Part shown: positions 6,738 through 44,360 of the stretch, one piece after another
Layout: every line of letters begins with the position of its first letter
Position numbering within the stretch: the stretch's first letter is position 1
NCBI GenBank assembly: GCA_002702705.1
Contig: PABH01000025.1
Coordinates: forward strand, 1 to 61,215
Direction: 5' to 3'
Source: Anaerolineaceae bacterium
GTDB taxonomy: Bacteria; Chloroflexota; Anaerolineae; Anaerolineales; Anaerolineaceae
DNA length: 61,215 nt
Notes under the pieces: generated by a model
What the model was told of the DNA's origin: nothing
The model's input: the letters and a program-made list of their open reading frames with translations, nothing else
Databases searched by the model: none
Made by a program: the position numbers and the translations under genes

Positions 6738-7901
6738 TCAATCTTGATCTTTTAATAAAATATCAAAAATCATTCGAATGGTATTCACAACAAATTGAAC
6801 TTCCTCCATTTTTAGTTTGGGATACAAAGGTAAGGTAACTTCTCGATTAGCGATTTCTTCCGTAATAGAAAGATCAATATCCTTTGTATTAATTACACCT
6901 TTGTGATAACTAAACTTATAAATGGGTGGATAATGAAAACTAGTTTGTATTCCAGCAGTTTTCATATGTTCCATAAAAACAATACGATCAATGGATGGTG
7001 GTAGTAAAACAGGCATTAAGTGGTAAGCTGATTGTCCCGGATGATTTAAGAAAGGAATTTTCATCTCAGGTATTCCAGATAAAAATCGAGTTTGATAATC
7101 TTGAACAATATTTTTCCGTTTATCATTAAATTCAACGAGTTTTTTTAACTGCTCTATTCCCAAAGCAGAATGAATCTCGTCAATTCGGTAATTAAAACCA
7201 AGCGATACCACATCATAACTCCAGGCATGACCTTTGTGACGGTCCCACGTCAGAGAAGTCATTCCATGAGATCTCAGCTTTTTCAGTTTTTCTGCCATTT
7301 CGCCGTCATTCGTCGTAACCATGCCCCCCTCCCCTGTTGTCATATTCTTGTTAGCAAAAAAACTAAAACATCCAATATCACCCCAAGCACCCATCCGAAT
7401 ATCATACAAAGAAGCACCCGGTGCATGAGCAGCATCTTCGATTAGGATTAATTTATTTTCACGCGCAAATAGAAGGATCTCTTCCATATGGCATGGATAA
7501 CCGCCATAATGCATAACAATAATAGCTTTTGTCCTTGGCGATTTTAATTTCTTTATCGATTCAAGAGATATTGTAAAATCATCTAATGAAACAACATCCG
7601 CAAAAACAGGTTTTGCGCCACAATAAAGAACAGCATTTGCCGTTGCAACAAAGGTTAAAGCTGGCAATATTACTTCATCACCCGGACCAATTCCAGCCGC
7701 AAGACAAGCCATATGTAATGCCACCGTGCCATTGGCCACTGCAAATGCATATTTAACATCAATAAATTTTCCAAAATCCTGTTCAAATTCAACTGTTTTC
7801 TCCCCCATGGTTAACCATCCACTATTAATCACTTGCTGAACTGCAAGTGTTTCTTCCTGCCTAAAATCAATGTCAGATAATGGTACTACCCATTTTTTCA
7901 T
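6738..7901 (-). CDS. DegT/DnrJ/EryC1/StrS sugar aminotransferase
   Basis: 387 residues, the usual length for this PLP-dependent fold-type I family, which aminates keto groups of nucleotide sugars. The predicted Schiff-base lysine is Lys185 in FFANKNMTTGEGG, and Asp156 in IEDAAHA should contact the pyridine nitrogen. The start ATG shares one base with the stop of the nucleotidyltransferase gene (TAATG), indicating coupled translation. The LegB-like dehydratase and the nucleotidyltransferase lie immediately upstream. The three together suggest synthesis of an NDP-4-amino-4,6-dideoxy sugar, but the exact sugar cannot be read from sequence. No dedicated acetyltransferase is adjacent. Confidence 0.9.
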   Translation of the reverse strand: MKKWVVPLSDIDFRQEETLAVQQVINSGWLTMGEKTVEFEQDFGKFIDVKYAFAVANGTVALHMACLAAGIGPGDEVILPALTFVATANAVLYCGAKPVFADVVSLDDFTISLESIKKLKSPRTKAIIVMHYGGYPCHMEEILLFARENKLILIEDAAHAPGASLYDIRMGAWGDIGCFSFFANKNMTTGEGGMVTTNDGEMAEKLKKLRSHGMTSLTWDRHKGHAWSYDVVSLGFNYRIDEIHSALGIEQLKKLVEFNDKRKNIVQDYQTRFLSGIPEMKIPFLNHPGQSAYHLMPVLLPPSIDRIVFMEHMKTAGIQTSFHYPPIYKFSYHKGVINTKDIDLSITEEIANREVTLPLYPKLKMEEVQFVVNTIRMIFDILLKDQD

Positions 7902-8614
7902 TAATTTATCTCCTTAAAAAAACGTTCCCGATTGTTCACGAAATCTTTTGTAGCTCGTTCATAATCATCTTTTCGGCCCAAATCTTGCCAGTAGCCATCA
8001 AACAGATACCCTGTCACTTTTTCTCCCTCACCTAAAAGTTTATGGACAAGATTAGGGAAATCTAAGTATCGCCCTGGTTCTATATACTTTATCAATGCTG
8101 GTTCAAATACATAAATCCCCATGCTTACCTGATAATCGTAGGTAGGTTTTTCGATATATCCCACCACAGTAGGACCACTATCACATAAAACCACACCAAG
8201 ATCAATTTTCTCACTTCGTTTATGCATAGCAATCGTTGCCACTGCTTTCTCTTTTTTGTGAAAATCAATTAAGTTTCGAAGACTAAGATCAGTTAGCACA
8301 TCACCATTTAAAACCAAAAATGTATCATCCAAATTTTTGATCAAGCCCAAAGGTCCGGCTGTTCCCAATGGTTCTTTCTCATAACTATATTGAATATTTA
8401 CACCAAACTGGCTGCCATCACCAAAGAAAGCCTTTAATAATTCGGAGAGATGGCCCACAGTGAGTATAATTTCTTCGATTCCATTATTTTTTAGCTGCCG
8501 GATGATGACTTCTAAAATTGGCATATCATTAATAGGCATTAATGGTTTGGGTAAAATTTGCGTATATGGATATAATCGTGTACCTCTACCACCAGCAAGA
8601 ATTATTGCTTTCAT
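7901..8614 (-). CDS. Sugar-1-phosphate nucleotidyltransferase
   Basis: 237 residues when started at ATG 8614, which has a strong SD (GGGAGG) 6-8 bases upstream; an in-frame ATG at 8632 lacks one. The Rossmann-like nucleotidyltransferase signature AIILAGGRGTRLYP with PKPLMPI opens the protein, and the metal-binding LNGDVL follows at about residue 105. It activates a sugar phosphate with a nucleoside triphosphate. The closest familiar groups are mannose-1-phosphate guanylyltransferase-like enzymes and the transferases of legionaminate clusters, but no CBS domains are present. The base specificity is not determinable by eye. Confidence 0.85.
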   Translation of the reverse strand: MKAIILAGGRGTRLYPYTQILPKPLMPINDMPILEVIIRQLKNNGIEEIILTVGHLSELLKAFFGDGSQFGVNIQYSYEKEPLGTAGPLGLIKNLDDTFLVLNGDVLTDLSLRNLIDFHKKEKAVATIAMHKRSEKIDLGVVLCDSGPTVVGYIEKPTYDYQVSMGIYVFEPALIKYIEPGRYLDFPNLVHKLLGEGEKVTGYLFDGYWQDLGRKDDYERATKDFVNNRERFFKEIN

Positions 8615-8649
8615 GACAATCCTCCCTTTCATAAAGATGTTTTTTGAAA

Positions 8650-9654
8650 TTAAAATTCGTATCGTCCTATGTTGTAACTATCCAGATTTTTACTTATCCA
8701 GTGTATTGTTTTTTGCAGTCCTTCTTCAAAGCTAAATTTAGGAAACCAATTTATTTTTTCTCTCGCAAATGAATTATCTGATAAAAGCTGCAGAACTTCC
8801 GACTTTTCAGGACGTAGTCTTTTTTCATCAACAATAATGTCAAGAGGTTTTTCTAATATACGAGAGACCACTTGACAAACTTCTTTAATGGAAACCTCTT
8901 TTCCTGTTCCTAAATTAAATGTTTTTCCCTCAACATCTTTTGCGATTCCAGCCTTAATAAAACCGTTTACCGTATCCTCCACATAGGTAAAATCTCGAGT
9001 TGTTTCTATATTTCCCAAATGCAGTTTATCTCCGGTTAATGCCTGAGTAATGATCACTGGAATAACAGCACGTGCTGATTGGCGAGGTCCAAACGTGTTA
9101 AAAGGCCGTACCGTCACAACTGGCAATTTATAGGAACAGTAAAAACTCTCAGCGATGGCATCCGCACCGATTTTGCTAGCGGCGTAAGGTGACTGTCCGT
9201 GTAAGGGATGGTTTTCTGTAATGGGAACAAATTGAGCTGTGCCATAAACTTCACTTGTACTTGTGTGAACAATTTTCTTTACCTGATAAAATCGTGCAGC
9301 ATTTAAAATATTCAAAGTTCCTTGAATATTAGTGTTTATCACATGGCTGGGATGGACGTAAGAATAAGGAATGGAGATAATCGCACCCAAATGAAAGATA
9401 ATATCAATCCCTTGAGCTGCTATTAGAACTGCATTGGAATCACACAGGTCACCTGAAATGATCTCAATATTATTTTTGGTTTCAGATGAAAGCATACTCA
9501 GGCATCCAACATCACCTCTCGAGTTATAGTGAACAAACGCTTTTACATCAGCGTTTAACGCAACAAGGGTTTCAGCCAAATGGCTTCCAATGAATCCTCC
9601 GGCACCTGTGATTAAAACTTTTTTGTTTTTAAAAAATCCCGTCTCAATATCCAT
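8650..9654 (-). CDS. LegB-like NDP-sugar 4,6-dehydratase (extended SDR)
   Basis: 334 residues. An N-terminal NAD-binding motif (GAGGFIGSHL) and the catalytic YxxxK (SPYAASK) mark an extended short-chain dehydrogenase. The stretches VHYNSR, PYSYVHPSH and FNTFGPRQSARAVIP closely match the LegB group, which makes UDP-4-keto-6-deoxy-N-acetylhexosamine in legionaminate-type pathways. It probably supplies the keto-sugar for the aminotransferase two genes downstream. SD AAAGG precedes ATG 9654. UDP-glucuronate decarboxylase-like activity is a less likely alternative. Confidence 0.85.
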   Translation of the reverse strand: MDIETGFFKNKKVLITGAGGFIGSHLAETLVALNADVKAFVHYNSRGDVGCLSMLSSETKNNIEIISGDLCDSNAVLIAAQGIDIIFHLGAIISIPYSYVHPSHVINTNIQGTLNILNAARFYQVKKIVHTSTSEVYGTAQFVPITENHPLHGQSPYAASKIGADAIAESFYCSYKLPVVTVRPFNTFGPRQSARAVIPVIITQALTGDKLHLGNIETTRDFTYVEDTVNGFIKAGIAKDVEGKTFNLGTGKEVSIKEVCQVVSRILEKPLDIIVDEKRLRPEKSEVLQLLSDNSFAREKINWFPKFSFEEGLQKTIHWISKNLDSYNIGRYEF

Positions 9655-9687: not shown

Positions 9688-11718
9688 TTACGTGGCGAAT
9701 TGGTCCACATTATCATTGATCATGTCAGCAGTTACAGCTTCTATTAATGAATCTGGACCTAATATAGAATCGTCACCGTGTGTTACACATCCAACCAATA
9801 CTTCAACAGAAATTAATCCCCTATCTGTTTCAATAGGTTTTGATGTAATACTATGCTTAATCCTATTTATTACGATCCTGGCATCTCTAAAATTGGTTTC
9901 CGGCATAAGGATTACAAAATCATTTTCTTCCAAACGCCCGATCGTATCAATCGTCCGGGTTTGTTTGGTTACATTATCAGCCACATTGCACAATATTTGC
10001 GATAGAACTGCATGAGGACGGGTTACTCCCTGAGGCCATAAGATTTGAAGCCTTAATCGTATTAATGAAAAAACATGGTTATACCGTCTCGTACGAGCTA
10101 ACTCAATTCGTAAAGCCCTCATAAAAGATGTTTGGTTTAATACACCAGTCAACCGATCTTTACTGTTTTTATCAATCAAATTTTCCTTGATAGAATTTTC
10201 ATCTACCTTTCCGGAAGGAAAATAAAACCTCAAGCTTTCTAATATATCCACAAGCATTATCGTTCTTGTTTTTGATCTTCGACACAAATCCAAAATCGTT
10301 TCAGAGTCTGTCAGGGAAATATTATTGATTGCGAACAAAACTAACCCTACATCATATTTTGAAATAACATCCGCAACACTTGATGTTTGAGCAATAACTT
10401 GAATTCCATCAATTCTTGTGCCGATCTTTTCAGGATCATCATCCAAAAAGCCAATAATATTAAAAGCCGGAGCAAAGGGACTATCTTTTAACAACCTGAT
10501 GCCAAAATTAGCAGCTTCGCCTGCTCCGATTATAATAACCGGTTCACCCAAACCTTCTGCTTTTGAACCACGTAATTTCGTCCAGCGAGTTGCCAATCCT
10601 GTAACAATTCTTCCGCGATAACGAACAATATTAAAACCAATAAATGCAAACATCCCACTCGTCACCAAAATAATCGGTGGTAAGCTTAGTTTGGGTGGTA
10701 AGAATATATTAATAACAAATATAGCAACTGTCACGATCCCTGTTGAAACTGCCAATTCTAAAGTTTCCCCAGGTGATGCTAATCTCCATTCAATACGATT
10801 AACACCGCGAATGGTATTCACTAGGCTGAACAAAAGAGCAATAGACAATGCAATTGCAAAGGAAGGAACTATGCCAATATCTAATGGGGAGCTTAATCTT
10901 CGTAATACCCCTGCCATAGCTACAGAAACCAATGCAACAACAAAATCCAGGATGAACCAACGCACATAACGTCTAAATAATAAATTGAGAGGTCCCTGAT
11001 ATAGTAAGTGCTCTTTAATTTCAAAATTCTTTATTTTAGGAACCAACGCAATCGCAGTCCAAAAGATAACATCCATATCACTTAATAAATTGCGTTTCCG
11101 TATGTATAACTGATCCAGGCGCAATTTACTGGGAAGAACGTCCCAAAAATATTGATTCATTATGTCATCGGAATTTAACAGTTTTTCTTCATTCCGGTAA
11201 ACGATAGATGCAGGACTGGTTAACCCAGGTTTTACGGAAAAAATTTCTTGTTTAATAGATTCCGGCCATTTTTTCGCAATGTCGGGATCTTCTGGTCGGG
11301 GACCAACCAAACTCATTTCACCAACAAACACATTCCACAGCTGGGGAAGTTCGTTTAATTTGGTATCTCGTAAGGTTTTTCCTAATTTTGTTATCCGATG
11401 ATCACCTTCAGCCGTTACCTTTTTTCCATTATAACTTTCCGGTGTTTCATACATGGTACGAAATTTTAATATTTCAAATATTTTTCCATCTTTGCCAACT
11501 CGTTTTCCTCGATAAATTGCTGGCCCAGGAGAATCTTTTTTAATTAAATAAACTAAAAAGATAATCAACGGCCATAACAAAAACAAAGCCAAACCGGAAA
11601 AAAGAATATCTAATGCACGGCGGATTATACGATTAAAGAATGATTTTAAAAAAATTATTTGTTTTTTTGCATCTTTTTGATCCATTATGACGCGGGATCC
11701 TAAAACATCTTTATTCAT
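9688..11718 (-). CDS. Priming sugar-phosphate transferase fused to nucleotide-binding and degenerate GGDEF domains
   Basis: 676 residues from ATG 11718, which has a strong SD (AAAGGAGG). An in-frame ATG at 11739 would give an ATGA overlap with the gene before it and cannot be excluded. Residues 30-230 are a bacterial sugar transferase (PglC/WcaJ/WbaP type: one hydrophobic helix, FEILKFRTM, ELPQLWNV, GEMSLVGPRPE), which starts glycan assembly by moving sugar-phosphate to undecaprenyl phosphate. The usual D-E pair before LPQ reads Asn122-Glu123. Residues 250-370 hold several membrane helices and 390-500 a Rossmann-like domain (VIIIGAGEAA). Residues 518-676 resemble a GGDEF domain (DRLTGVLNQTSF), but the signature reads EENDF (597-601), so cyclase activity is unlikely. 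Domain order differs from the usual WbaP layout, where the transferase is C-terminal. Confidence 0.85.
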   Translation of the reverse strand: MNKDVLGSRVIMDQKDAKKQIIFLKSFFNRIIRRALDILFSGLALFLLWPLIIFLVYLIKKDSPGPAIYRGKRVGKDGKIFEILKFRTMYETPESYNGKKVTAEGDHRITKLGKTLRDTKLNELPQLWNVFVGEMSLVGPRPEDPDIAKKWPESIKQEIFSVKPGLTSPASIVYRNEEKLLNSDDIMNQYFWDVLPSKLRLDQLYIRKRNLLSDMDVIFWTAIALVPKIKNFEIKEHLLYQGPLNLLFRRYVRWFILDFVVALVSVAMAGVLRRLSSPLDIGIVPSFAIALSIALLFSLVNTIRGVNRIEWRLASPGETLELAVSTGIVTVAIFVINIFLPPKLSLPPIILVTSGMFAFIGFNIVRYRGRIVTGLATRWTKLRGSKAEGLGEPVIIIGAGEAANFGIRLLKDSPFAPAFNIIGFLDDDPEKIGTRIDGIQVIAQTSSVADVISKYDVGLVLFAINNISLTDSETILDLCRRSKTRTIMLVDILESLRFYFPSGKVDENSIKENLIDKNSKDRLTGVLNQTSFMRALRIELARTRRYNHVFSLIRLRLQILWPQGVTRPHAVLSQILCNVADNVTKQTRTIDTIGRLEENDFVILMPETNFRDARIVINRIKHSITSKPIETDRGLISVEVLVGCVTHGDDSILGPDSLIEAVTADMINDNVDQFAT

Positions 11719-11735
11719 TTTTTTCCTCCTTTCCT

Positions 11736-12794
11736 TCATTTCTCAACCCTTTTTGATTGGTACATTTTTTCCCAAAATTTCCTAAATTTGAATAAACCAG
11801 CTAACATACCCATTCCATAACTGATGTGTAATATAAAAAAAACCACAGGTAATAAATAAAGATGACTCCATCCAGCCTGGTATGAAAGTTGAAACGAAGC
11901 AATCAAATTCACCAATATATAACTTCCCCCCAAGCCTGTAAACAAAACCCATCCTGGTTTCCAAAACAAACCTAATAATAAAGAGAAAAATAAACTTAAA
12001 ACAAAAACAGAGGGGATAAAGTGCCGCAAATGCATTTGTTTCCAATGTTTTTGCATTACACGAACTTTATAAAAACCATATTGATAATACTGTTTCCAAA
12101 GTTTCTTTAAACTTGCTCTGCTGTAGTAAGTGGATTTGATATCCGCAGCCATTAATAATTTGCCACCCTTTTCCCTGATGCGAAAATTATATTCATCATC
12201 CTGGTTTCTCACCAATTCTTCATCGAAAAGCCCAATTTTAAGGATATCCTTTCGCCAATAAGCAGGAAAAGGAATAGTATCCACAAACATTGTTTTATTC
12301 TTAATTGTCCGAAAAGCGGAACCACCAACACCAAATTTTGAACTCATCGCAAGCGCAATTGTCTCTGCAATGCGAGTTTCTCCGATAGTCTTCATCGGTC
12401 CACCTACGCCCATCACGGGTTGTGTCAGTAAATAGTGAACGCATTTAGTAAAGTAATCTTTTGAAATGACACAATGTCCATCAACGCGGATAATAATTTC
12501 TCCTGTCGAATCCATTATCGCTTTGTTTAACCCCGTACTAACAATCTTATCCGGATTATCTATGATTCTTGTATTTTCACGTCCCGCTAAAAGGGTGGTG
12601 CAGATCGAGCGCGTATCATCAGTCGACATACCATCAGCAATAACGATTTCTATTTTATTTTTAGGATAATCCGCATTTAAGACAGCCCCCAAGCTTCGTT
12701 TGATATAGCTCATTTCATTACGAATTGGCATTACAATACTAATGAAAGGCAACTCGTTATCATCCAAAAACGGAATTTCAATATTCACTGTCAT
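11736..12794 (-). CDS. Family 2 glycosyltransferase, ExoA-like
   Basis: 352 residues. A GT-A fold is indicated by ISIVMPIRNE, a DGMSTDDT motif, the metal-binding RVDGH and a QDDEYNFRI segment. Two or three membrane helices follow at about 255-335. This layout resembles ExoA-type enzymes that add an early sugar to a lipid-linked precursor at the cytoplasmic face. It lies directly upstream of the priming transferase gene, consistent with the second step of assembly. The SD is weak. Donor and linkage are unknown. Confidence 0.88.
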   Translation of the reverse strand: MTVNIEIPFLDDNELPFISIVMPIRNEMSYIKRSLGAVLNADYPKNKIEIVIADGMSTDDTRSICTTLLAGRENTRIIDNPDKIVSTGLNKAIMDSTGEIIIRVDGHCVISKDYFTKCVHYLLTQPVMGVGGPMKTIGETRIAETIALAMSSKFGVGGSAFRTIKNKTMFVDTIPFPAYWRKDILKIGLFDEELVRNQDDEYNFRIREKGGKLLMAADIKSTYYSRASLKKLWKQYYQYGFYKVRVMQKHWKQMHLRHFIPSVFVLSLFFSLLLGLFWKPGWVLFTGLGGSYILVNLIASFQLSYQAGWSHLYLLPVVFFILHISYGMGMLAGLFKFRKFWEKMYQSKRVEK

Positions 12795-23459: not shown

Positions 23460-24296
23460 TTAATCTTTCCAAAAAGGTTTTGCTGTATTCCAAACCACCA
23501 GGAGTTCATTAATTAATTTTTCCATCTCAGTTAAAGGAATCATATTAGGCCCATCGCTTAACGCGGAATCAGGATTAGGATGAGTTTCCATAAAAAAGCC
23601 ATCTACACCAGATGCCGCTGCCGCTCTGGCTAGGTAGGGAGCATATTGTCTTTGTCCTCCGGATTTCCCGCCCAACCCACCAGGTTGTTGAACACTATGG
23701 GTAAGATCAAAAACGACAGGTGCCATCGTACGCATAATGACAAATGATCGCATATCAACTACCAGATTGTGGTAACCAAACGAACTCCCTCTTTCGGTTA
23801 AAATAACTCTTTCATTTTTGGCGTCAAAAGATTTTTGGACAGCAAAAAACATATCGTCTGGTGCCATGAATTGGCCTTTCTTAATATTGACCACTTTTCC
23901 TGTTCTCGCGACAGCTTGTATTAAATCCGTTTGTCTGCATAAAAAAGCTGGAATTTGTAAAATGTCTACTACGTCAGATACTTCCCCTACCTGACTTGTT
24001 TCATGCACATCGGTTAACACTGGAAGGTTTAAATCCTTACCAACTTTAGATAAGATTTTTAACGAATCTTCAAACCCAATGGATCGAAATGACCGGCCAG
24101 AAGTACGGTTTGCTTTATCAAATGAAGACTTAAAAACAAATGGTAATTTATATTTCTCAAATAAAGTCTTTAAATATTCCGCTGTTTCAAAAATAATTGA
24201 TTCTGATTCCACCACGCAAGGCCCACAAATAAATAATGGGTAACTTGCACCTATCTTGGTTGTTGAATTTATATTAAAAATGTGTTGATTTTCCAT
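23460..24296 (-). CDS. kdsA: 3-deoxy-D-manno-octulosonate 8-phosphate synthase
   Basis: 278 residues, normal family length. It condenses phosphoenolpyruvate with arabinose 5-phosphate to give KDO-8-phosphate in the cytoplasm. The family block FKSSFDKANRTS is intact. CGPCVVESE places a Cys (Cys27) where metal-dependent enzymes have it, and the other ligands DLTHSVQQ, METHPNPD and SDGPN are present, so this is the metal-dependent class, unlike the E. coli enzyme. It follows kdsB and the kdsD-like gene, 3 bases from the latter. SD GAAGGGG precedes the ATG. No kdsC phosphatase is visible in the window. Confidence 0.95.
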   Translation of the reverse strand: MENQHIFNINSTTKIGASYPLFICGPCVVESESIIFETAEYLKTLFEKYKLPFVFKSSFDKANRTSGRSFRSIGFEDSLKILSKVGKDLNLPVLTDVHETSQVGEVSDVVDILQIPAFLCRQTDLIQAVARTGKVVNIKKGQFMAPDDMFFAVQKSFDAKNERVILTERGSSFGYHNLVVDMRSFVIMRTMAPVVFDLTHSVQQPGGLGGKSGGQRQYAPYLARAAAASGVDGFFMETHPNPDSALSDGPNMIPLTEMEKLINELLVVWNTAKPFWKD

Positions 24297-24299
24297 TCC

Positions 24300-25289
24300 T
24301 CAGCCCCTTCCGCGGTAAATATCATGCAGGCGGATTAAACCCAAGCATGTATGGTTTTCCAAATCTACAACCGGTAACACCGATATTTGGGAAGATCGAT
24401 GTTCCATCATCTCTGCAGCCTTTCCCAATGTAATTTCAGGTGTAGCAAATATCGGATTCACTGTCATCACATCTTTAGCCTTTAATAAGCGAATATCTTC
24501 ATATTGCTTTAATGCTCTGCGAACATCCCCATCTGTAATTATCCCTAATAAACGGTTATCTTGGTCTATGACACAAGCAGCCCCTAAGGGTTTGGATGTC
24601 ATTTGAATGACAACATCCCTTAATAACGTCTCTAAATTAACCCAAGCGACATTCTGATCTCGATGCATCACATCTTCCACATGCAAAAACAAGTTTCTGC
24701 CGAGTTGTCCACCTGGATGAAACCGAACAAAATCCGTCTCAGAAAAATTTCTAGCGTACATAAGGGCACTGACCAATGCATCACCAAGTGCTAATGCTAC
24801 GATAGATGAAGCTGTAGGTACAACACCCAATGGATCTGCCTCTTTATCTACCCTCCCATCCAAAACCACATCGGCTTCATTGGCTAACACAGACTGCAAA
24901 TTACCAACGATAACGATTAATTTTGATTTAAACTGTCGTAAAACAGGTACTAATCGTAATAATTCTTCCGTGCTGCCGCTCTTGGAAATCAAAATACTAG
25001 GATCCCCGGGTGAATAGACACCCAGATTTCCATGGATAGCCTCTGTCGGATGAAGAAAAACAGCCGGAGTACCGGTGCTGCACAAACTTGCGGTTATTTT
25101 TTGACCGATAATACCAGATTTTCCAATACCACTGATAATAACTTTTCCCGGGTGATTTAAAATAATCTCAACAGCTTTTGTGATATCACCATTCATCCGT
25201 TCAGAAGCTGCATAAATTGCTTCTGATTCAATTTTCATTGCTGTTTGGGCGATCTGTAAATATTCTGAAATCTCAAGTGCTATACTCAT
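24300..25289 (-). CDS. kdsD: D-arabinose 5-phosphate isomerase (KpsF/KdsD/GutQ family)
   Basis: 329 residues. A SIS sugar-isomerase domain (GIGKSGIIGQK, ISKSGSTEEL, HPTEAIHGNLG) is followed by two CBS domains (VEDVMH..., KDVMTVNPIF...). The family converts ribulose 5-phosphate to arabinose 5-phosphate, the KdsA substrate. SD AAGGAG precedes ATG 25289 and the gene overlaps kdsB by 17 bases. The KpsF-type copy used in capsule loci is the closest description. The CBS pair may sense a nucleotide. Confidence 0.92.
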   Translation of the reverse strand: MSIALEISEYLQIAQTAMKIESEAIYAASERMNGDITKAVEIILNHPGKVIISGIGKSGIIGQKITASLCSTGTPAVFLHPTEAIHGNLGVYSPGDPSILISKSGSTEELLRLVPVLRQFKSKLIVIVGNLQSVLANEADVVLDGRVDKEADPLGVVPTASSIVALALGDALVSALMYARNFSETDFVRFHPGGQLGRNLFLHVEDVMHRDQNVAWVNLETLLRDVVIQMTSKPLGAACVIDQDNRLLGIITDGDVRRALKQYEDIRLLKAKDVMTVNPIFATPEITLGKAAEMMEHRSSQISVLPVVDLENHTCLGLIRLHDIYRGRG

Positions 25290-26034
25290 AATAATCTCCT
25301 TGAGCTGCTAATTTCCGCACCACTTCCAGATCTGCTGGTGTGTCAACCGCAATAGATCGATATTGCGTAACAATTGTCTGAAATTGCATACCGGCTTCTA
25401 AAAACCGCAATTGTTCCAGCTTCTCAACTGCTTCTAATGACCCAGGCAACAAGTCATTGTAATGGGTAAGAATTTCTCTTCGGTAAGCATAAATTCCAAT
25501 ATGTCCCCAATAAACCCCATTTTGTAACCATCCATCCGGCGAAGTGTCCCGGGCATAAGGAATGGGTGATCTGGAAAAATATAACGCTAAACCATTCTTT
25601 GTTCTAACTACTTTTACGATATTTGGATTAAGTAAGTCATCATTATTTGATAAAGGATAAACAGCTGTTATTAGATCAGCTTTATCTTGTTGGCATTCAT
25701 GAACCATTTGATCGATCATATTAAAGGAAATAAACGGCTCATCTCCCTGTACATTAAATACCCAATCAGCATCCAACTGATCGATGATCGAAGCAATACG
25801 CTCGGTTCCAGAAGCACATTCTGGATTTGTCATTATGGCTTTCCCCCCCCATTCTGTGACAATTGAAAAGACCTCATCAGAATCTGTGGCAACAAAAACA
25901 TCATACAAATCTTTAGCCTTTTTTGTACGATTCCAGACATGCCATAACATGGGTTTTCCCTGAATATCAGCTAAAATTTTTCTAGGAAAACGAGTTGACT
26001 GTAATCGAGCAGGAATAACAGCAATAATCTTCAT
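25273..26034 (-). CDS. kdsB: CMP-KDO synthetase (3-deoxy-manno-octulosonate cytidylyltransferase)
   Basis: 253 residues from ATG 26034, the better start (SD AGGAT, 4 bases after the previous stop); the in-frame ATG at 26082 lies inside the preceding gene. The signature VIPARLQSTRFPRK, the ATDSDEV strand, SGTERIA and QGDEPF are characteristic of KdsB, which couples KDO to CMP. With KdsD and KdsA it makes the CMP-KDO donor for a glycosyltransferase. Confidence 0.94.
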   Translation of the reverse strand: MKIIAVIPARLQSTRFPRKILADIQGKPMLWHVWNRTKKAKDLYDVFVATDSDEVFSIVTEWGGKAIMTNPECASGTERIASIIDQLDADWVFNVQGDEPFISFNMIDQMVHECQQDKADLITAVYPLSNNDDLLNPNIVKVVRTKNGLALYFSRSPIPYARDTSPDGWLQNGVYWGHIGIYAYRREILTHYNDLLPGSLEAVEKLEQLRFLEAGMQFQTIVTQYRSIAVDTPADLEVVRKLAAQGDYYEYST

Positions 26035-26038
26035 AATC

Positions 26039-27082
26039 CTATTTCCAATTTTTTCTTGTAATGTCACGAAATTTACGCCCAAACGGAAGCAAATTTTTTA
26101 CCAGGGAAAAGCGTTTAATATATCTCGGATAATTTAAGATCGAGATTAAACGATAATATCCTTTTTTTAATGGATTTGAAATGTGTTCGGATGTGTTCCA
26201 ATAACCTTGTGCCAGCCGCGACTTTGCTACTCGCTCCCGTTTTAGTTTATCTTCTTGGTCTCCAAAATTAATATAACGCAGAGCTAAACTGTCTTCTCTA
26301 TACATACGTATCGTGTCCTTTTGACGTTTTGCGTTTGAATGAGTTCGATCTGACGCCAATGGCTCCTCAAGGATAATGATCCTCCCTTCAGGACATAAGC
26401 GATACATCAATTCTCGATCCATCACATAATGCAAATCTTCACGCAACCAACGTCCTACTTTATCGAGGTACTCCCTTACAAAAAATGAAGACTGTTGGGC
26501 AATATACCATTGAGATATATCCACAGTAGAAAGATCTACCGGCGGTTCCGGTCTTATCTTGGAATGGCGTGTTTGAAGTATGTTTGAATCAGCATCAATC
26601 GTATGGATACTCCCTGTCACCAAAATTACATCACTTTGATAGGACCAACCTACCGCAGCCTTGATAAATGCATTGGGCTGGTAAACATCATCACTTGGCA
26701 AATAAGCAATCAGGTCACCTTTGGATAATAACCATCCTTTATTAATGGCGTGACTTTGTCCTCGATCTGGCTCGCTGCGCCATTTAGTAATCCAGGGAGA
26801 ATATTTTTTTATTATCTCTGTACTTCCATCCGTTGATCCACCATCCATCACAAATAATTCAAATCGAGGATACCCTTGTAAAAGCACGGACCGAATCGCT
26901 TCCTCTAAAAATGAACTTTGATTCAAACTGGGGATGGTAATACTAATCAAAGGCCAGTCGTTCTCATTTTGCATCTTTGAGGATATCGGGGAAATAGTAG
27001 GATTCCATGGCCAACCACTTTTTTTCCCAGTTACTGCTGGTAATTGGGTTGAATAAATTAAAGATTTGAGTTGGTTTTCCAC
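26039..27082 (-). CDS. Family 2 glycosyltransferase
   Basis: 347 residues. The start is GTG 27082 with a strong SD (AAGGGGGG); it overlaps the preceding gene by 25 bases. ISITIPSLNQSSFLEEAI, DGGSTDGS, and the metal site PSDDVYQPNAF mark a GT-A domain. An acidic RELMYRL segment gives the catalytic region. It ends with a basic C-terminus. It likely adds one residue on the cytoplasmic side. The substrate is unknown. Confidence 0.88.
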   Translation of the reverse strand: MENQLKSLIYSTQLPAVTGKKSGWPWNPTISPISSKMQNENDWPLISITIPSLNQSSFLEEAIRSVLLQGYPRFELFVMDGGSTDGSTEIIKKYSPWITKWRSEPDRGQSHAINKGWLLSKGDLIAYLPSDDVYQPNAFIKAAVGWSYQSDVILVTGSIHTIDADSNILQTRHSKIRPEPPVDLSTVDISQWYIAQQSSFFVREYLDKVGRWLREDLHYVMDRELMYRLCPEGRIIILEEPLASDRTHSNAKRQKDTIRMYREDSLALRYINFGDQEDKLKRERVAKSRLAQGYWNTSEHISNPLKKGYYRLISILNYPRYIKRFSLVKNLLPFGRKFRDITRKNWK

Positions 27083-38839: not shown

Positions 38840-41608
38840 CTATCGCACTACCAAGGGAATAAACACATCAAAACCTTCTGGATTAAAATTAGCAATTACG
38901 GTTTTTGAACCGGTCATTGTCACAACACAAGTCCCAGTACCCAAACAACCTCCTCCACTCCATCCCGTAAATATTGAACCAGCTGTTGGATTTGCAGTTA
39001 AGGTAACCACTGTTCCATAATCATAAACTTCGGAACAATCGATCCCACAATTAATCCCGTCAGGACTGCTTGTTACTGAACCACTGCCTTCTCCAGTTAA
39101 GGTCACAGACAAGGGGTAGGTATTTAATGTAAAAGTTGCTGTTACTGTTTTTATCGCGTCAATATCCACCTGACATGTTCCTGTACCTGAACAACCTTCA
39201 CCACTCCACCCAACAAATGTAGAACCTGTGTTGGCGACCGCGGTTAACGTAACCGTTGTACCAAACAAAAATTCAGAAGAGCAGGTGTCTCCGCAAGTTA
39301 TACCGGTGGGTTCGCTGGTTATGACACCTTCCCCGTTACCAGCTTTTTCAACGATCAAGATATCGGTCCCCAACAAAAAGGTAGCATTCACTGTTTTTGC
39401 TTCATCCATTGTGACTTCACAAGTTCCAGTTCCTGAACAACCACCTCCCATCCAACCTGTAAATGTTGATCCAATGGATGGATTTGCAGTTAAGGTAACC
39501 ACTGTTCCATGATCATACTCTTCGGAACAATCACTTCCACAATTAATCCCATCCACACTTGTAACCGTTCCTGTACCAGTTCCAGATTTGGTAATGGAAA
39601 GTAAATATCGATTTAGTGAAAAGTTGACTGTAATATTATGGGGATTATTCATTACCAATGAAACAGGATTCTCTGTGCTGACTACGTCTCCTACCCAATC
39701 GACAAATGAATATCCAACAGCTGCATTCGCGGTTAGACTTACAGATTGTCCGCAAGTATAGGAAGAAAGATTAGGATCTTTTGTTACGGTACCATTACCA
39801 ACAATTGTGAGATTAATTGAATTTTGCTCTGTATCGTCAACAAAAGTATTATCATTAACATCTTTGAAGTAATCAAAAATTGCCGTATGAGCAGGAGCAT
39901 TAGGAGCGATTGCATTACCGGCATATATACCGATTTTATCGACATCCATCATGTAAGGGAAAGTTGCCTCGGCGAACCAGGTTGAACCACCAATGGAGTA
40001 GCCCGTAATCCAACGATCTCCGCTTCGGAAAACCCGCAAATAAAGTGGGGAAACACCGGCCACACCAATTTTTTTATTAAGATAGGTATGACTCACAGAT
40101 CCTTGGAAACTTCTTGCATATAAAAATGTATCGGTTCCATCACTATAAAATTCAAAGCGCATAAAATTATTTGGATCAACCCCTTCTACCATAATCCCTT
40201 GCATTTGGTATTGCTCGTTCACTACTGAACCGAATTTTGCCTCTACATGGAAATCCTCATCGGCAATCGACTGACGCACCCTGGCAGCATAATTTTTATT
40301 TTCAATCGGATTATTGGCAACCGGCAAACCTCCTGGTACTGATATATTCAGTTTTGCATCGCCGGTAAAAGCACCTGTTATCTCACTACTCGTTTGAGCA
40401 ATATTTACAGGTGTATAAAATTCCCAAACAGCCGGGTCTAATGTACAAATGTTAAAATCATCAGAAACAATATCTGATTGGGTTGGTGGGTTAATTTGTG
40501 AAACCCTTACGTCACCGAATTCTGCATCAACATGGTGTGAAAAAAGGACCACAGAACCGCTGCGTGGATCATCCGGTGCACCCTGCCAGGTTAAATTCCA
40601 TTCAGATGGCTCAGAAACAGATTTATCCCAAACTTTCAGGCTATATAATGGGCTGCCATCACCCATTGTTACAACCTGAAATTTATACATATATGTGGTT
40701 CCAAATGATAATGTAGATAAACCTGCAGAAACACTGGTACTTTCATCATGGTAAATTTTTAATCTTCCCTCATCAGCATTATCCCAGCGATACCATCCAA
40801 TCGCACCCAGCGGAAGCCACCCCGATTTCGGTTGGGTACCAGCGACAAATGCAGGTAGATCTGTATGACCAGTCCAGCGAGCAATTAATCCGATTCCGGG
40901 TGTATAACTTTCGCCGCCACAGTCGTAAAACTCATCACAGCTTGGGTCAATCCCAATTGGTTTAATTTCTGCCAAAACTTCGTAGTCTTGCCACCCCATA
41001 TCGCCAATTGCCACCATACGATCATAACCTGGTTCGGTTGTATATAACATCGTATCCGCTGCATTCCATTTTCCATCCACAACTTGCGCTTTCGTTAAAT
41101 CAACATTCCAATTTGTTATGGAAAAAGAAGATTCGGACAAGTCCCATCTTTTATAACGTTCATAGTTAACGGTCACTGTAACGGACGTTTGATTGGGAAT
41201 ACTGTCCGTGGCAATTATCTCTACTGTATTTACTGCAGGTAGAGCATTTAATTCACTATCAAATAATTCAACCGCAAAATCTCCAATATTTTCCAAACGA
41301 CGTCCATCCGGTCCAATGGTTAAATCTTTAATATCTCCCCCGTTCAACCGATATTGTAAAGAAACAGCATCGGCAGACACATTCCCCAGAATAGCAATCT
41401 GCCCTTGCGGATTTGAAGGATCACCAAAGGTTTGGGTAAGACCATACCAAATATTAATTACAGGACCAACTTCTAAAAGATCTTCTTGTAGATTATGACC
41501 TAATGAATTTGCCCCAACAAGACCGATATTGATATCCAACCCGAGCCAGCTGGTGACTAAAACCAAAACGAATAGAATTGACAACAACCGCTTAATATAG
41601 CTTTTCAT
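38840..41608 (-). CDS. Secreted protein with InlB-like B-repeats, Cys-rich
   Basis: 922 residues from ATG 41608, with a strong SD (GGGAGG); the ATG at 41626 has none. A signal peptide is followed by an unknown N-terminal beta domain (VNIWYG, IGPDGRRLEN), a concanavalin-like region (DUF1349-like, SDDFNICTLDPAVWEF) and four divergent InlB B-repeats (Flg_new_2-like). The last three repeats each contain CG-x-x-C and C-x-G-T-G-x-C, likely disulfide pairs. The tail is FIPLVVR. The gene is paralogous with the one immediately upstream. Cell-surface glycan binding or adhesion is a guess. Confidence 0.82.
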   Translation of the reverse strand: MKSYIKRLLSILFVLVLVTSWLGLDINIGLVGANSLGHNLQEDLLEVGPVINIWYGLTQTFGDPSNPQGQIAILGNVSADAVSLQYRLNGGDIKDLTIGPDGRRLENIGDFAVELFDSELNALPAVNTVEIIATDSIPNQTSVTVTVNYERYKRWDLSESSFSITNWNVDLTKAQVVDGKWNAADTMLYTTEPGYDRMVAIGDMGWQDYEVLAEIKPIGIDPSCDEFYDCGGESYTPGIGLIARWTGHTDLPAFVAGTQPKSGWLPLGAIGWYRWDNADEGRLKIYHDESTSVSAGLSTLSFGTTYMYKFQVVTMGDGSPLYSLKVWDKSVSEPSEWNLTWQGAPDDPRSGSVVLFSHHVDAEFGDVRVSQINPPTQSDIVSDDFNICTLDPAVWEFYTPVNIAQTSSEITGAFTGDAKLNISVPGGLPVANNPIENKNYAARVRQSIADEDFHVEAKFGSVVNEQYQMQGIMVEGVDPNNFMRFEFYSDGTDTFLYARSFQGSVSHTYLNKKIGVAGVSPLYLRVFRSGDRWITGYSIGGSTWFAEATFPYMMDVDKIGIYAGNAIAPNAPAHTAIFDYFKDVNDNTFVDDTEQNSINLTIVGNGTVTKDPNLSSYTCGQSVSLTANAAVGYSFVDWVGDVVSTENPVSLVMNNPHNITVNFSLNRYLLSITKSGTGTGTVTSVDGINCGSDCSEEYDHGTVVTLTANPSIGSTFTGWMGGGCSGTGTCEVTMDEAKTVNATFLLGTDILIVEKAGNGEGVITSEPTGITCGDTCSSEFLFGTTVTLTAVANTGSTFVGWSGEGCSGTGTCQVDIDAIKTVTATFTLNTYPLSVTLTGEGSGSVTSSPDGINCGIDCSEVYDYGTVVTLTANPTAGSIFTGWSGGGCLGTGTCVVTMTGSKTVIANFNPEGFDVFIPLVVR

Positions 41609-41705
41609 GGAGACCTCCCTGAACATAATCAGATTTCATATGCTTTCATACGCAAAATTTTTTATACAATTCCTTTTCCCCCAAAATGTTTTATAAATTT
41701 CCAGT

Positions 41706-44360
41706 CTATTTAATCAACATCGGTAGATAAATCCTCCTTTGGGTAAAAACTGCTCGTAGATTGTTATTATTTTCAATTTGAATCTGAAGAGGATTTTCAA
41801 ACCTTGTTTCAGTACCTTCCCAATGACTAAAAATCCAACCGGTTTGGGGATAAGCTTGCAAATTCACTAACTCACCATAAGCATATAAAGTCTTATTGGG
41901 CTCAATTTCAATCCAACCTGAACCGATTACACTAGTGGTTATTTCAAAAAATGATTCGGAAAAAATCGCTGTCACATTTTTATGCGAGTCCATCATGAAT
42001 GATATTTCGTCCAAAAATCCATTTTCAGACCCTTCCCATTGTGCAAAAGACCAGCCTAACGCTGGTTCAGCTTGTAAAGTGACAATTTCTCCATACGCAT
42101 AATACGTTTTATCGGGAGTAACAATAACATTCCCTTCACCTGTCGTATGGATGGTTAATGCATAAAGTTGTGGCACAAAAATAGCTGTCATTAACAAATC
42201 TTCATCCGTTACCGTAATGAATAATTCGTTTTCTTCACTTACAACAACTCCCTCCCAATGATCAAACACCCAGCCAGGATCAGCAACCGCCGTCAATACA
42301 ACCGTTTCTCCAGCTAAATAAACAGTTTTTTCCGGTGATTTGGTCACATCACCAGAACCAACAATATTTATATCCACTATAAACGCCGTTTGAGAAAAGT
42401 TTGCTCCAACCGTACTAGGGCTGTTCATGGTAATTGTATTTGTCGCCTCTGAACCTTCCAACGCCCCACTCCAATTAGAAAAAACCCAATTTTCATCTGC
42501 AAAAGCGGATAATGTAACAACTTCCCCACAACTATAATTTAAACGATCAGGAGATTTATTTACCAATCCACTGCCATAAATGGAAACATTCAACTCATTT
42601 CTGGCTTCATCTTCCACCGAAATTGGGTCGTTTGTTGCGATGTAATAATCAACTGTGGAATTGATTTGGGGAGCTTGGGTATTACCTTCATTTCCTGCAT
42701 AGATATATGATTCGGTAATTTTTTGATGAAAAGGAAAAGTTATCCGATCAACCCATTCATTTTGCATAATCCGATAAGATAGCAAATACCTACTGCCATA
42801 CCGCTTGAGAGCTAACGTAATATCTGCCTGATTATTCTCACTAATTTTTTCCATCAACCATTCAATTTTCAACCAGCTGGTAGAACCAGTTTTTTCTTGT
42901 GTGGTTATTACCAAATAAACCCCACTTAAACGGTATTGTAATTCTGCTTGAACCCATCTGGTATGATCAATATTTTTAAGAACAATACCTTGTAATGGAT
43001 AATAAATATCACTGGTTGGAAGAATGGATGAATCAAATTGAACCTCAAGATTAAAATCTCCATCATTGATAAATTGTCGAACTTTAGGCACCGTATTTGT
43101 GGAACGGTCCAAAATATGTTCAACCCCTTGCGGTAACGATATGGATAAACTGGCATCCTGAGTATATCCATTATTAATCACCATCGTGGCATCTGCTAAC
43201 GGATTCGAGAACTCCCAAATGCCATTATCTAATTCACAACGGTTAAAATCATCCGAAACCATGTTCGTATCAATCGCTGTCGAAAGCGGAACAATGGATA
43301 CGTTTCCAAAGGTTGCATCCACATGATGGGCCAAAAGGAGGATTGAACCCCCAGTCGGATCTTCATCACTACCATCATAAGCTTGCAAATCCCAAGAAGT
43401 TGGTTCAGATGTTCCTTCATTCCACACTTTCAACTTATACAAAGACCTGCCGTCATCTTGAGTCTGCACAGACATTTTAAACATATAGGTAGTATCAAAA
43501 GCCAACTGTTTTCCACTGGTATCCGTGCTATTGGGCACTGAATTCATATCAATTTGTAATCGAGCAGGGCCTAAATCATACGGCCAGCGGTACCAACCAA
43601 TCGCACCGTACGGCTGGTATCCACAATCCGGTTGATCACAACTTACGGGATCATGTGTGTGTCCACTCCATCGCATGAGAATGCCAACAGCCGGCCCATA
43701 ACTTGGCGGTTCATACCCTGCGGGATCCATCGAATGGATTGTAATTGGTACTGTAATTTCGTAATCCCGCCAACCTAAATCCCCAATCGCAATTAATCGA
43801 TCATAACCAATTTGACTAGTTCGAATTCCATCAGCATTGATATTCCATAACCCATCAACAAACTGAACTTTCGATTGTATATTACCGCTGTTCCAATCAA
43901 CAGAATACGTTTCCGGCCAAAAATTTGTTCTCGAATATTGAATGGAAACGACTTTACGATCTTCGTCGCTCATATTTCGATTTGCAATAATCTCAACTGA
44001 ATTTAGACCTTCAATCAAATCTCGATCAAATATATCTATCGCAAAATCACCTGCATTTTGCAAACGACGACTATCTGGACCGATAGACAAAACTTGAAGG
44101 CTTCCTCCATTCAGAGAATATTCCAGTGTTGTCGCATTAATCGCATTACCTAAAATATTAATTTGCCGCTGTGGATTCCCTGGCCATCCGAAGGTTTGGC
44201 TATCTCCATACCAAACGTTGACTGTCACGCTGGACTCATCGGTTTCATAGGGAATAATCGAGTTTGCTGAAACTTTCACGGGTGTAGAAGCCAAAAACAA
44301 AGCAGACCCTAAGATTATTAATAAGACTGAAAAACGGAGTTGTATATATTTTTCTTTCAA
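41706..44360 (-). CDS. Secreted protein with InlB-like B-repeats, nearly Cys-free paralogue
   Basis: 884 residues. The start is TTG 44360 with AGGGGTG upstream; no ATG fits the signal peptide. The layout matches the downstream paralogue: VNVWYGDSQTFG, IGPDSRRLQN, a concanavalin-like domain (SDDFNRCELDNGIWEF) and four repeats, ending IYLPMLIK. The repeats contain one Cys (SCGE in the first) rather than the paired cysteines of the other copy. Duplication and divergence is likely. Confidence 0.82.
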   Translation of the reverse strand: MKEKYIQLRFSVLLIILGSALFLASTPVKVSANSIIPYETDESSVTVNVWYGDSQTFGWPGNPQRQINILGNAINATTLEYSLNGGSLQVLSIGPDSRRLQNAGDFAIDIFDRDLIEGLNSVEIIANRNMSDEDRKVVSIQYSRTNFWPETYSVDWNSGNIQSKVQFVDGLWNINADGIRTSQIGYDRLIAIGDLGWRDYEITVPITIHSMDPAGYEPPSYGPAVGILMRWSGHTHDPVSCDQPDCGYQPYGAIGWYRWPYDLGPARLQIDMNSVPNSTDTSGKQLAFDTTYMFKMSVQTQDDGRSLYKLKVWNEGTSEPTSWDLQAYDGSDEDPTGGSILLLAHHVDATFGNVSIVPLSTAIDTNMVSDDFNRCELDNGIWEFSNPLADATMVINNGYTQDASLSISLPQGVEHILDRSTNTVPKVRQFINDGDFNLEVQFDSSILPTSDIYYPLQGIVLKNIDHTRWVQAELQYRLSGVYLVITTQEKTGSTSWLKIEWLMEKISENNQADITLALKRYGSRYLLSYRIMQNEWVDRITFPFHQKITESYIYAGNEGNTQAPQINSTVDYYIATNDPISVEDEARNELNVSIYGSGLVNKSPDRLNYSCGEVVTLSAFADENWVFSNWSGALEGSEATNTITMNSPSTVGANFSQTAFIVDINIVGSGDVTKSPEKTVYLAGETVVLTAVADPGWVFDHWEGVVVSEENELFITVTDEDLLMTAIFVPQLYALTIHTTGEGNVIVTPDKTYYAYGEIVTLQAEPALGWSFAQWEGSENGFLDEISFMMDSHKNVTAIFSESFFEITTSVIGSGWIEIEPNKTLYAYGELVNLQAYPQTGWIFSHWEGTETRFENPLQIQIENNNNLRAVFTQRRIYLPMLIK

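Follow-up and report, generated by a model that had tools for sequence, protein, structure and literature searches.

A phosphoglycosyl transferase joined to a degenerate, putatively c-di-GMP-sensing GGDEF domain in Anaerolineales

In the window, the whole stretch of 61,215 nucleotides from an Anaerolineaceae bacterium that we analysed, a single uninterrupted reading frame encodes a phosphoglycosyl transferase (PGT) domain followed by membrane helices, a Rossmann-like region and a C-terminal GGDEF domain. This order recurs in nine genomes, the window's own included, and in all nine the GGDEF domain has lost its catalytic motif and kept the residues of an I-site; the gene lies beside conserved sugar genes, and trees support two origins of the fusion. 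Our best reading, to which we give about an even chance, is that the GGDEF part is a c-di-GMP receptor domain setting the activity of a priming enzyme. The fuller proposition, that a PGT with Asn-Glu instead of the Asp nucleophile is gated by c-di-GMP through a captured, dead GGDEF domain and that this evolved at least twice in Anaerolineales, is tentative and, taken whole, rather doubtful. Binding of c-di-GMP, an allosteric effect and its sign, and catalysis by the Asn-Glu PGT are the parts of this scheme that we infer.

Domain order, distribution and gene neighbourhood

Pfam placed Bac_transf at residues 40-232 (E 3.9e-52; 176.8 bits against a cut-off of 27) and GGDEF at residues 527-655 (45.9 bits against 23.8). 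The CoA_binding_3 match at residues 363-488 (E 3.2e-4) fell under its cut-off in the window protein, and the same family passed it in three of eight GGDEF-tailed relatives and in one of two scanned relatives without GGDEF. Among NCBIfam models, the PGT part fitted EPS_sugtrans best, with 247.1 bits, short of the 295.55 set for full length, and the GGDEF part exceeded the cut-off of its model (56.5 against 37.4 bits). Helices were seen at residues 250-282, 290-311, 323-346 and 355-389 of a low-confidence model.

Table 1. Features of the fused gene and of its neighbours in the window
Feature	Position	Strand	Basis or remark
Whole gene, PGT - membrane helices - Rossmann - degenerate GGDEF	9688..11739	-	683 aa; ORF, Pfam, AlphaFold2 model
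Monotopic PGT domain, residues 40-232	11044..11622	-	Pfam, residue alignment
Membrane-helix bundle, about residues 251-389	10573..10989	-	Low-confidence model; longer homologous genes in the class
Rossmann-like CoA_binding_3 region, about residues 399-495	10255..10545	-	Pfam, model
Degenerate GGDEF domain, residues 521-680	9700..10179	-	Pfam, model, structure matches
Putative c-di-GMP I-site, R595-x-x-D598 and R626	9862..9957	-	Invariant in 9/9
EENDF, degenerate GG(D/E)EF signature, residues 604-608	9916..9930	-	ORF translation, alignment
GT2 glycosyltransferase	11736..12794	-	Stop codon overlaps the start codon of the PGT gene
LegB-like NAD-dependent sugar dehydratase, conserved neighbour	8650..9654	-	Best model LegB, under cut-off
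Sugar-1-phosphate nucleotidyltransferase, conserved neighbour	7901..8632	-	Pfam
PseC/LegC-like DegT aminotransferase, conserved neighbour	6738..7901	-	Under the models' cut-offs

An earlier note on this DNA had set the gene at 9688-11718. One uninterrupted frame does span the gene, but 11718 is an internal methionine seven codons downstream of the start at 11739, and the note's residues 518-676 are residues 525-683 in the 683-residue numbering used here. The order that it had described (PGT, helices, nucleotide-binding domain, GGDEF) was borne out by the reading frame, by the domain search and by eight further genomes that carry it in one frame. The order is not special to the window protein: a PGT placed first and followed by helices and a Rossmann-like region is common in the class and the order. 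Unlike in large PGTs of the WbaP type, the four transmembrane helices and the CoA_binding_3 region come after the PGT and not N-terminal to it.

The eight other genomes, all Anaerolineales, hold full-length relatives that exceed the Pfam cut-offs for both Bac_transf and GGDEF; together with the window protein they span seven genera and two families, and one of them is Thermanaerothrix daxensis strain GNS-1 (Anaerolineaceae). With this order present in a single frame in all eight, the fusion is neither chance nor misassembly, and uniqueness to the window's own genome was likewise rejected. An assembly error or frameshift joining two genes would be conceivable in a draft of 74 contigs, such as this genome; we found nothing in its favour, and the recurrence of the full-length order refutes it, which leaves it a negligible probability.

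The GGDEF tail is rare and the PGT-first core common. In the family, 47 of 147 genomes had a match at E 1e-70 or better (six with the GGDEF tail); a match was also present in 96 of 400 genomes sampled from the order (seven with GGDEF) and in 21 of 400 sampled from the phylum (GGDEF only in the window's own genome), and a class sample of 396 genomes, queried with residues 241-683, gave a whole-length match only in the own genome. The nine GGDEF-tailed genomes are the union over these samples, in which 2 to 8 candidates were scored per genome, so that misses are possible. Among seven other genomes of the window's genus, five hold a form lacking GGDEF and two have no match at 1e-40. A scan for related loci with the single protein as query gave no match, and four loci were found with an alignment as query.

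Members with the PGT-first core, helices and Rossmann-like region lacking GGDEF are mostly about 500-630 residues long. The 74 distinct members that we compared end in short tails just beyond the Rossmann domain (35), in tails of at least 35 residues (24), in CxxC tails (6) or in GGDEF (9); GGDEF is thus absent from 65 of 74 sampled relatives, even within one genus, which counts against reading the tail as a receptor. Seven further long-frame members have tails that look helical by eye, and three of these carry a CxLC motif. CxxC tails were seen at the C-terminus of the same enzyme in L185-L187, L021, L028, L030, L080, L081 and L083, and these may be zinc-binding or docking modules. In L010 (G233:C14:88412-89923), a match without GGDEF could be extended through a TGA to the equivalent of window residue 529, by chance or as a remnant.

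The dehydratase, nucleotidyltransferase and aminotransferase genes of Table 1 come after the PGT gene in all nine loci, the window counted. The 61-kb contig carries no PGT besides the window gene, and six more lie elsewhere in the genome. Further along the window, a CMP-Kdo gene set (23460-26082) comprises a Kdo-8-P synthase, a KpsF-type isomerase and a CMP-Kdo synthetase; most Chloroflexota are not known to have LPS. At 38840-44360, two long proteins bearing InlB B-type repeats adjoin each other beside the glycan genes.

The Asn-Glu dyad of the PGT half

PGTs have a catalytic Asp-Glu dyad (PMC12802240, PMC10519829) whose Asp is the proposed nucleophile (PMC7729866, PMC10519829), and the dyad is said to occur in all members of the superfamily (PMC10519829). 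Where WbaP has Asp-Glu, our alignment places Asn129-Glu130 in the window protein, a substitution that the earlier note had missed. Asn occupies position 129 in 73 of 74 PGT-first family members, the only exception being L082, which is distantly related and belongs to a different family within the phylum, and Asn-Glu is found in seven further members as well. On account of this dyad, we class the window protein as a divergent relative with a PGT profile.

D44, P57, K92, R124, E130, P147-R148-P149 and D221 are invariant in all 74 members, and R94 and D223 are kept in 73. These include the D-x12-P re-entrant helix motif (D44, P57), the active-site Lys and Arg (K92, R124) and the PRP motif; the roles of these elements are those described for PGTs (PMC12802240, PMC10653937), mapped by hand onto the window residues.

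Asp stands at this position in the genome's other six PGTs and likewise in the PGTs that L037 and L038 encode as separate genes. Eight plasmid PGTs were compared from the 40 matches listed of 1006 matching records, and one has Asn-Glu; it comes from a Rhodobacteraceae plasmid and adjoins sugar genes, and Asn-Glu is therefore not confined to the PGT-first family. Either Asn-Glu PGTs would work in another way, or the family would be non-catalytic.

Because Asn replaces the catalytic Asp, the catalytic half is open to doubt, and the protein might instead serve a different priming enzyme as a regulatory or assembly subunit. The near-universal Asn in this family, the Asp of the genome's other PGTs and the published rule of Asp-Glu throughout the superfamily (PMC10519829) all speak for such a dead PGT. 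We nevertheless consider it improbable, given the invariance of D44, E130 and the other residues named above and the recurrence of Asn-Glu beside sugar genes in a Rhodobacteraceae plasmid. An active Asn-Glu PGT is further argued for by the gene's position, as the sole PGT of its contig and at the head of a nucleotide-sugar gene set in all nine loci.

The degenerate GGDEF domain and its putative I-site

A full-length AlphaFold2 model built from a five-row alignment was poor overall (mean pLDDT 55.3), except for the GGDEF domain and part of the Rossmann domain; across residues 531-650 the means of ten-residue blocks were 69-90. Modelled alone from one sequence, the GGDEF domain reached a pLDDT of 44.5, and that result was set aside. 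Searches with Foldseek and VIA-align matched the GGDEF part to GGDEF structures, some with c-di-GMP, among them 3ign, a GGDEF domain with bound c-di-GMP (VIA-align Z 20.2 over 156 residues, 2.3 A). Together with the Pfam match, the predicted fold agrees with the GGDEF domain that the earlier note had placed here.

That the domain is degenerate and non-catalytic, as also claimed, is upheld by its EENDF signature and by the loss of the GG(D/E)EF motif in all nine fused domains, the second Gly being kept in none. By its motif and by its metal and substrate residues, the window protein does not qualify as an active diguanylate cyclase; the C-terminal part of the GGDEF profile is unmatched in it, and the conserved residues there are mostly absent. 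Thirteen substrate/metal-site columns were defined as those conserved in at least 80% of 36 domains with an intact motif in the own genome, with the assignment to substrate or metal made by hand, and none of the 13 is retained throughout the nine fused domains. Single columns persist in up to five of nine, mostly in the type B members described below.

Only nine columns are invariant in the alignment of the nine fused domains: T531, N535, R552, L583, A587, R595, D598, F608 and R626. The triad R595, D598 and R626 is hence complete in all nine, with an RxxD followed by a second Arg, and R595-x-x-D598 is a putative c-di-GMP I-site motif. R626 sits 31 residues after R595, a spacing that presumably matches that from R359 to R390 in PleD. 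By position, R626 would be equivalent to R402 of PelD, a degenerate GGDEF that binds c-di-GMP through RxxD and requires a further Arg (PMC8461298); BcsE likewise retains the I-site (PMC8461298).

How unusual this retention is can be judged from other GGDEF domains. RxxD is present in 33 and the triad in 25 of the 36 intact-motif domains of the own genome, the SGDEF domain C22:101275 being counted here as intact-motif and excluded from the degenerate controls. Sixteen other degenerate GGDEFs from the nine genomes, low-scoring unfused domains chosen by hand among the matches listed, hold RxxD in six cases and the triad in five; half of the 16 form one GGDNF-like group, to which eight of the controls lacking RxxD belong, L174 and L175 are near-twins, and the omitted entries were G494 C18 and G409 C193, both short fragments, and G1068 C58, which was the weakest. 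Since RxxD is ordinary in GGDEFs and survives in some degenerate ones, I-site retention is suggestive and is not proof, and the nine fused members represent only two lineages. The case for a receptor is the retention of the I-site beside the loss of the catalytic motif in both of these lineages, which is suggestive and lends support to the earlier idea of a c-di-GMP sensor on a priming enzyme. Beyond the fused domain, six or more GGDEF matches occur in every one of the nine genomes, so that c-di-GMP is probably made in them, and the own genome also has two PilZ matches. One further GGDEF-like domain of that genome, L119 (C16:76250-76717), contains an in-frame TAG.

The domain might alternatively serve only for dimerisation or docking, its fold kept with no nucleotide bound, and so shape the oligomer or recruit a partner. 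Other small tails occupy the same C-terminal position in this family, some other degenerate GGDEFs also keep I-site residues, and EpsZ is thought to need help dimerising (PMC12802240), all of which fits such a scaffold. Persistence of the I-site triad in both captured lineages, while no substrate/metal column is held throughout, would be unexpected for it, and we regard a pure scaffold as possible but fairly unlikely. It appears very improbable that the old substrate site senses some other nucleotide (GTP, ppGpp or a different dinucleotide). Type B members of genus g535 do hold parts of a substrate half-site (Asn571, Gly579 and Asp580, in three of nine), but these columns are changed in the other six, the window protein included. 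With no substrate/metal column kept in all nine, the earlier suggestion of a GTP sensor finds little backing.

In the c-di-GMP receptor reading, the window protein would belong to an exopolysaccharide locus as its initiating sugar-phosphate transferase. Its C-terminal domain would be a former diguanylate cyclase that lost catalysis and, by way of the I-site it retained, came to serve as a c-di-GMP receptor. Binding of c-di-GMP would alter the packing or dimer contacts of the GGDEF domain against the Rossmann/PGT unit, and the altered contacts would cause more or less of the first sugar phosphate to be transferred to undecaprenyl phosphate. Allosteric action of EpsW on EpsZ provides a precedent for control of a PGT (PMC12802240), and UMP acts on WbaP via the Rossmann-like domain, for which allosteric control has been proposed (PMC10942596).

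Origins of the fusion and its place among known systems

In a tree built from the core alone, with the tail removed, GGDEF-tailed members fell into two separate groups: type A, with the window protein, G505 and G507 (support 99), and type B, with G447, G409, G494, G1060, G1068 and G1071 (support 94). A single clade of types A and B, and with it a single origin of the tail, was rejected on this core tree (lnL difference 101; p-AU 3.7e-73), a quick tree from which the long branch L082 had been omitted; repeats of the same protein were dropped. On a tree of the GGDEF domains, which took in 40 other domains of the own genome, the single clade was borderline (p-AU 0.045). Here the type A domains group with the intact-motif (GGEEF) domain of C23:4233 (support 91/95), a 787-residue membrane protein that is the nearest own-genome domain to type A and shows no glycan connection that we could see, and type B domains nest among GGDEFs of another set, within a group of 13 (support 98/89). 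These trees, the GGDEF tree weakly, indicate that GGDEF domains of different lineages were captured twice at a single C-terminal site. A single ancestral gain with a later swap of the GGDEF domain is a conceivable alternative.

The core itself may be a product of fusion. In L037 and L038 a separate small PGT gene overlaps a 660-residue gene matching the helix-Rossmann part, which suggests how the PGT-first core arose and offers a plausible source for it. The distant PGT-first relative L082 (L082:1501-3090) has Asp-Glu, and its frame continues past the Rossmann-like region into the apparent start of a dehydratase domain; it is possibly an intermediate in this origin. The helix bundle and Rossmann-like part resemble those of the CapD/FlaA1/PglF-type membrane dehydratases, whose dehydratase domain is absent from the window protein by Pfam. 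The likeness to PglF is described for PGTs in PMC10942596.

Large monotopic PGTs (WbaP, WcaJ and EpsZ) are built from the same modules, a four-helix bundle, a CoA_binding_3-like domain and the PGT core (PMC10942596), whereas the window protein has the reversed order with the PGT first, an added GGDEF domain and the Asn-Glu dyad. Fusions of PGTs with other domains, at one end or the other, already form a named class, in which bifunctional fusions likewise join the PGT core to a further domain at one end (PMC10942596); in the window protein, unlike these, the added domain is a presumed signal receptor. PelD and BcsE also combine a dead GGDEF that has an I-site with polysaccharide synthesis (PMC8461298), but they are separate subunits of synthase-dependent systems, and in the window protein a single chain holds both the putative receptor and the priming PGT. 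In Myxococcus, the signalling protein EpsW sets the activity of the initiating PGT EpsZ (PMC12802240); in contrast to the window's receptor domain, EpsW is a separate response regulator with a phosphorylation input. A further membrane-protein fusion with GGDEF is seen in PDB entries 8qj3, 8qj4 and 8qpf, where an ammonium transporter has a GGDEF-like stretch matching the profile of these domains.

Both PGT fusions and degenerate GGDEF receptors acting in polysaccharide synthesis are thus already known. In the open-access literature searched we found neither a PGT-GGDEF fusion nor a report of c-di-GMP acting on a priming PGT, nor any account of bound ligand or altered activity for a member of this family. 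Control by c-di-GMP is well described for synthase-dependent polysaccharides. Control of undecaprenyl-linked glycan synthesis at its first committed step is described as poorly understood, since the undecaprenyl carrier is scarce and shared with peptidoglycan (PMC10942596, PMC12802240). If our reading is true, c-di-GMP may act as a direct switch on the initial step of sugar-coat building. Two captures at a shared site open the link between c-di-GMP and a priming PGT to direct testing. An active Asn-Glu dyad would also be an exception to the catalytic rule stated for the superfamily.
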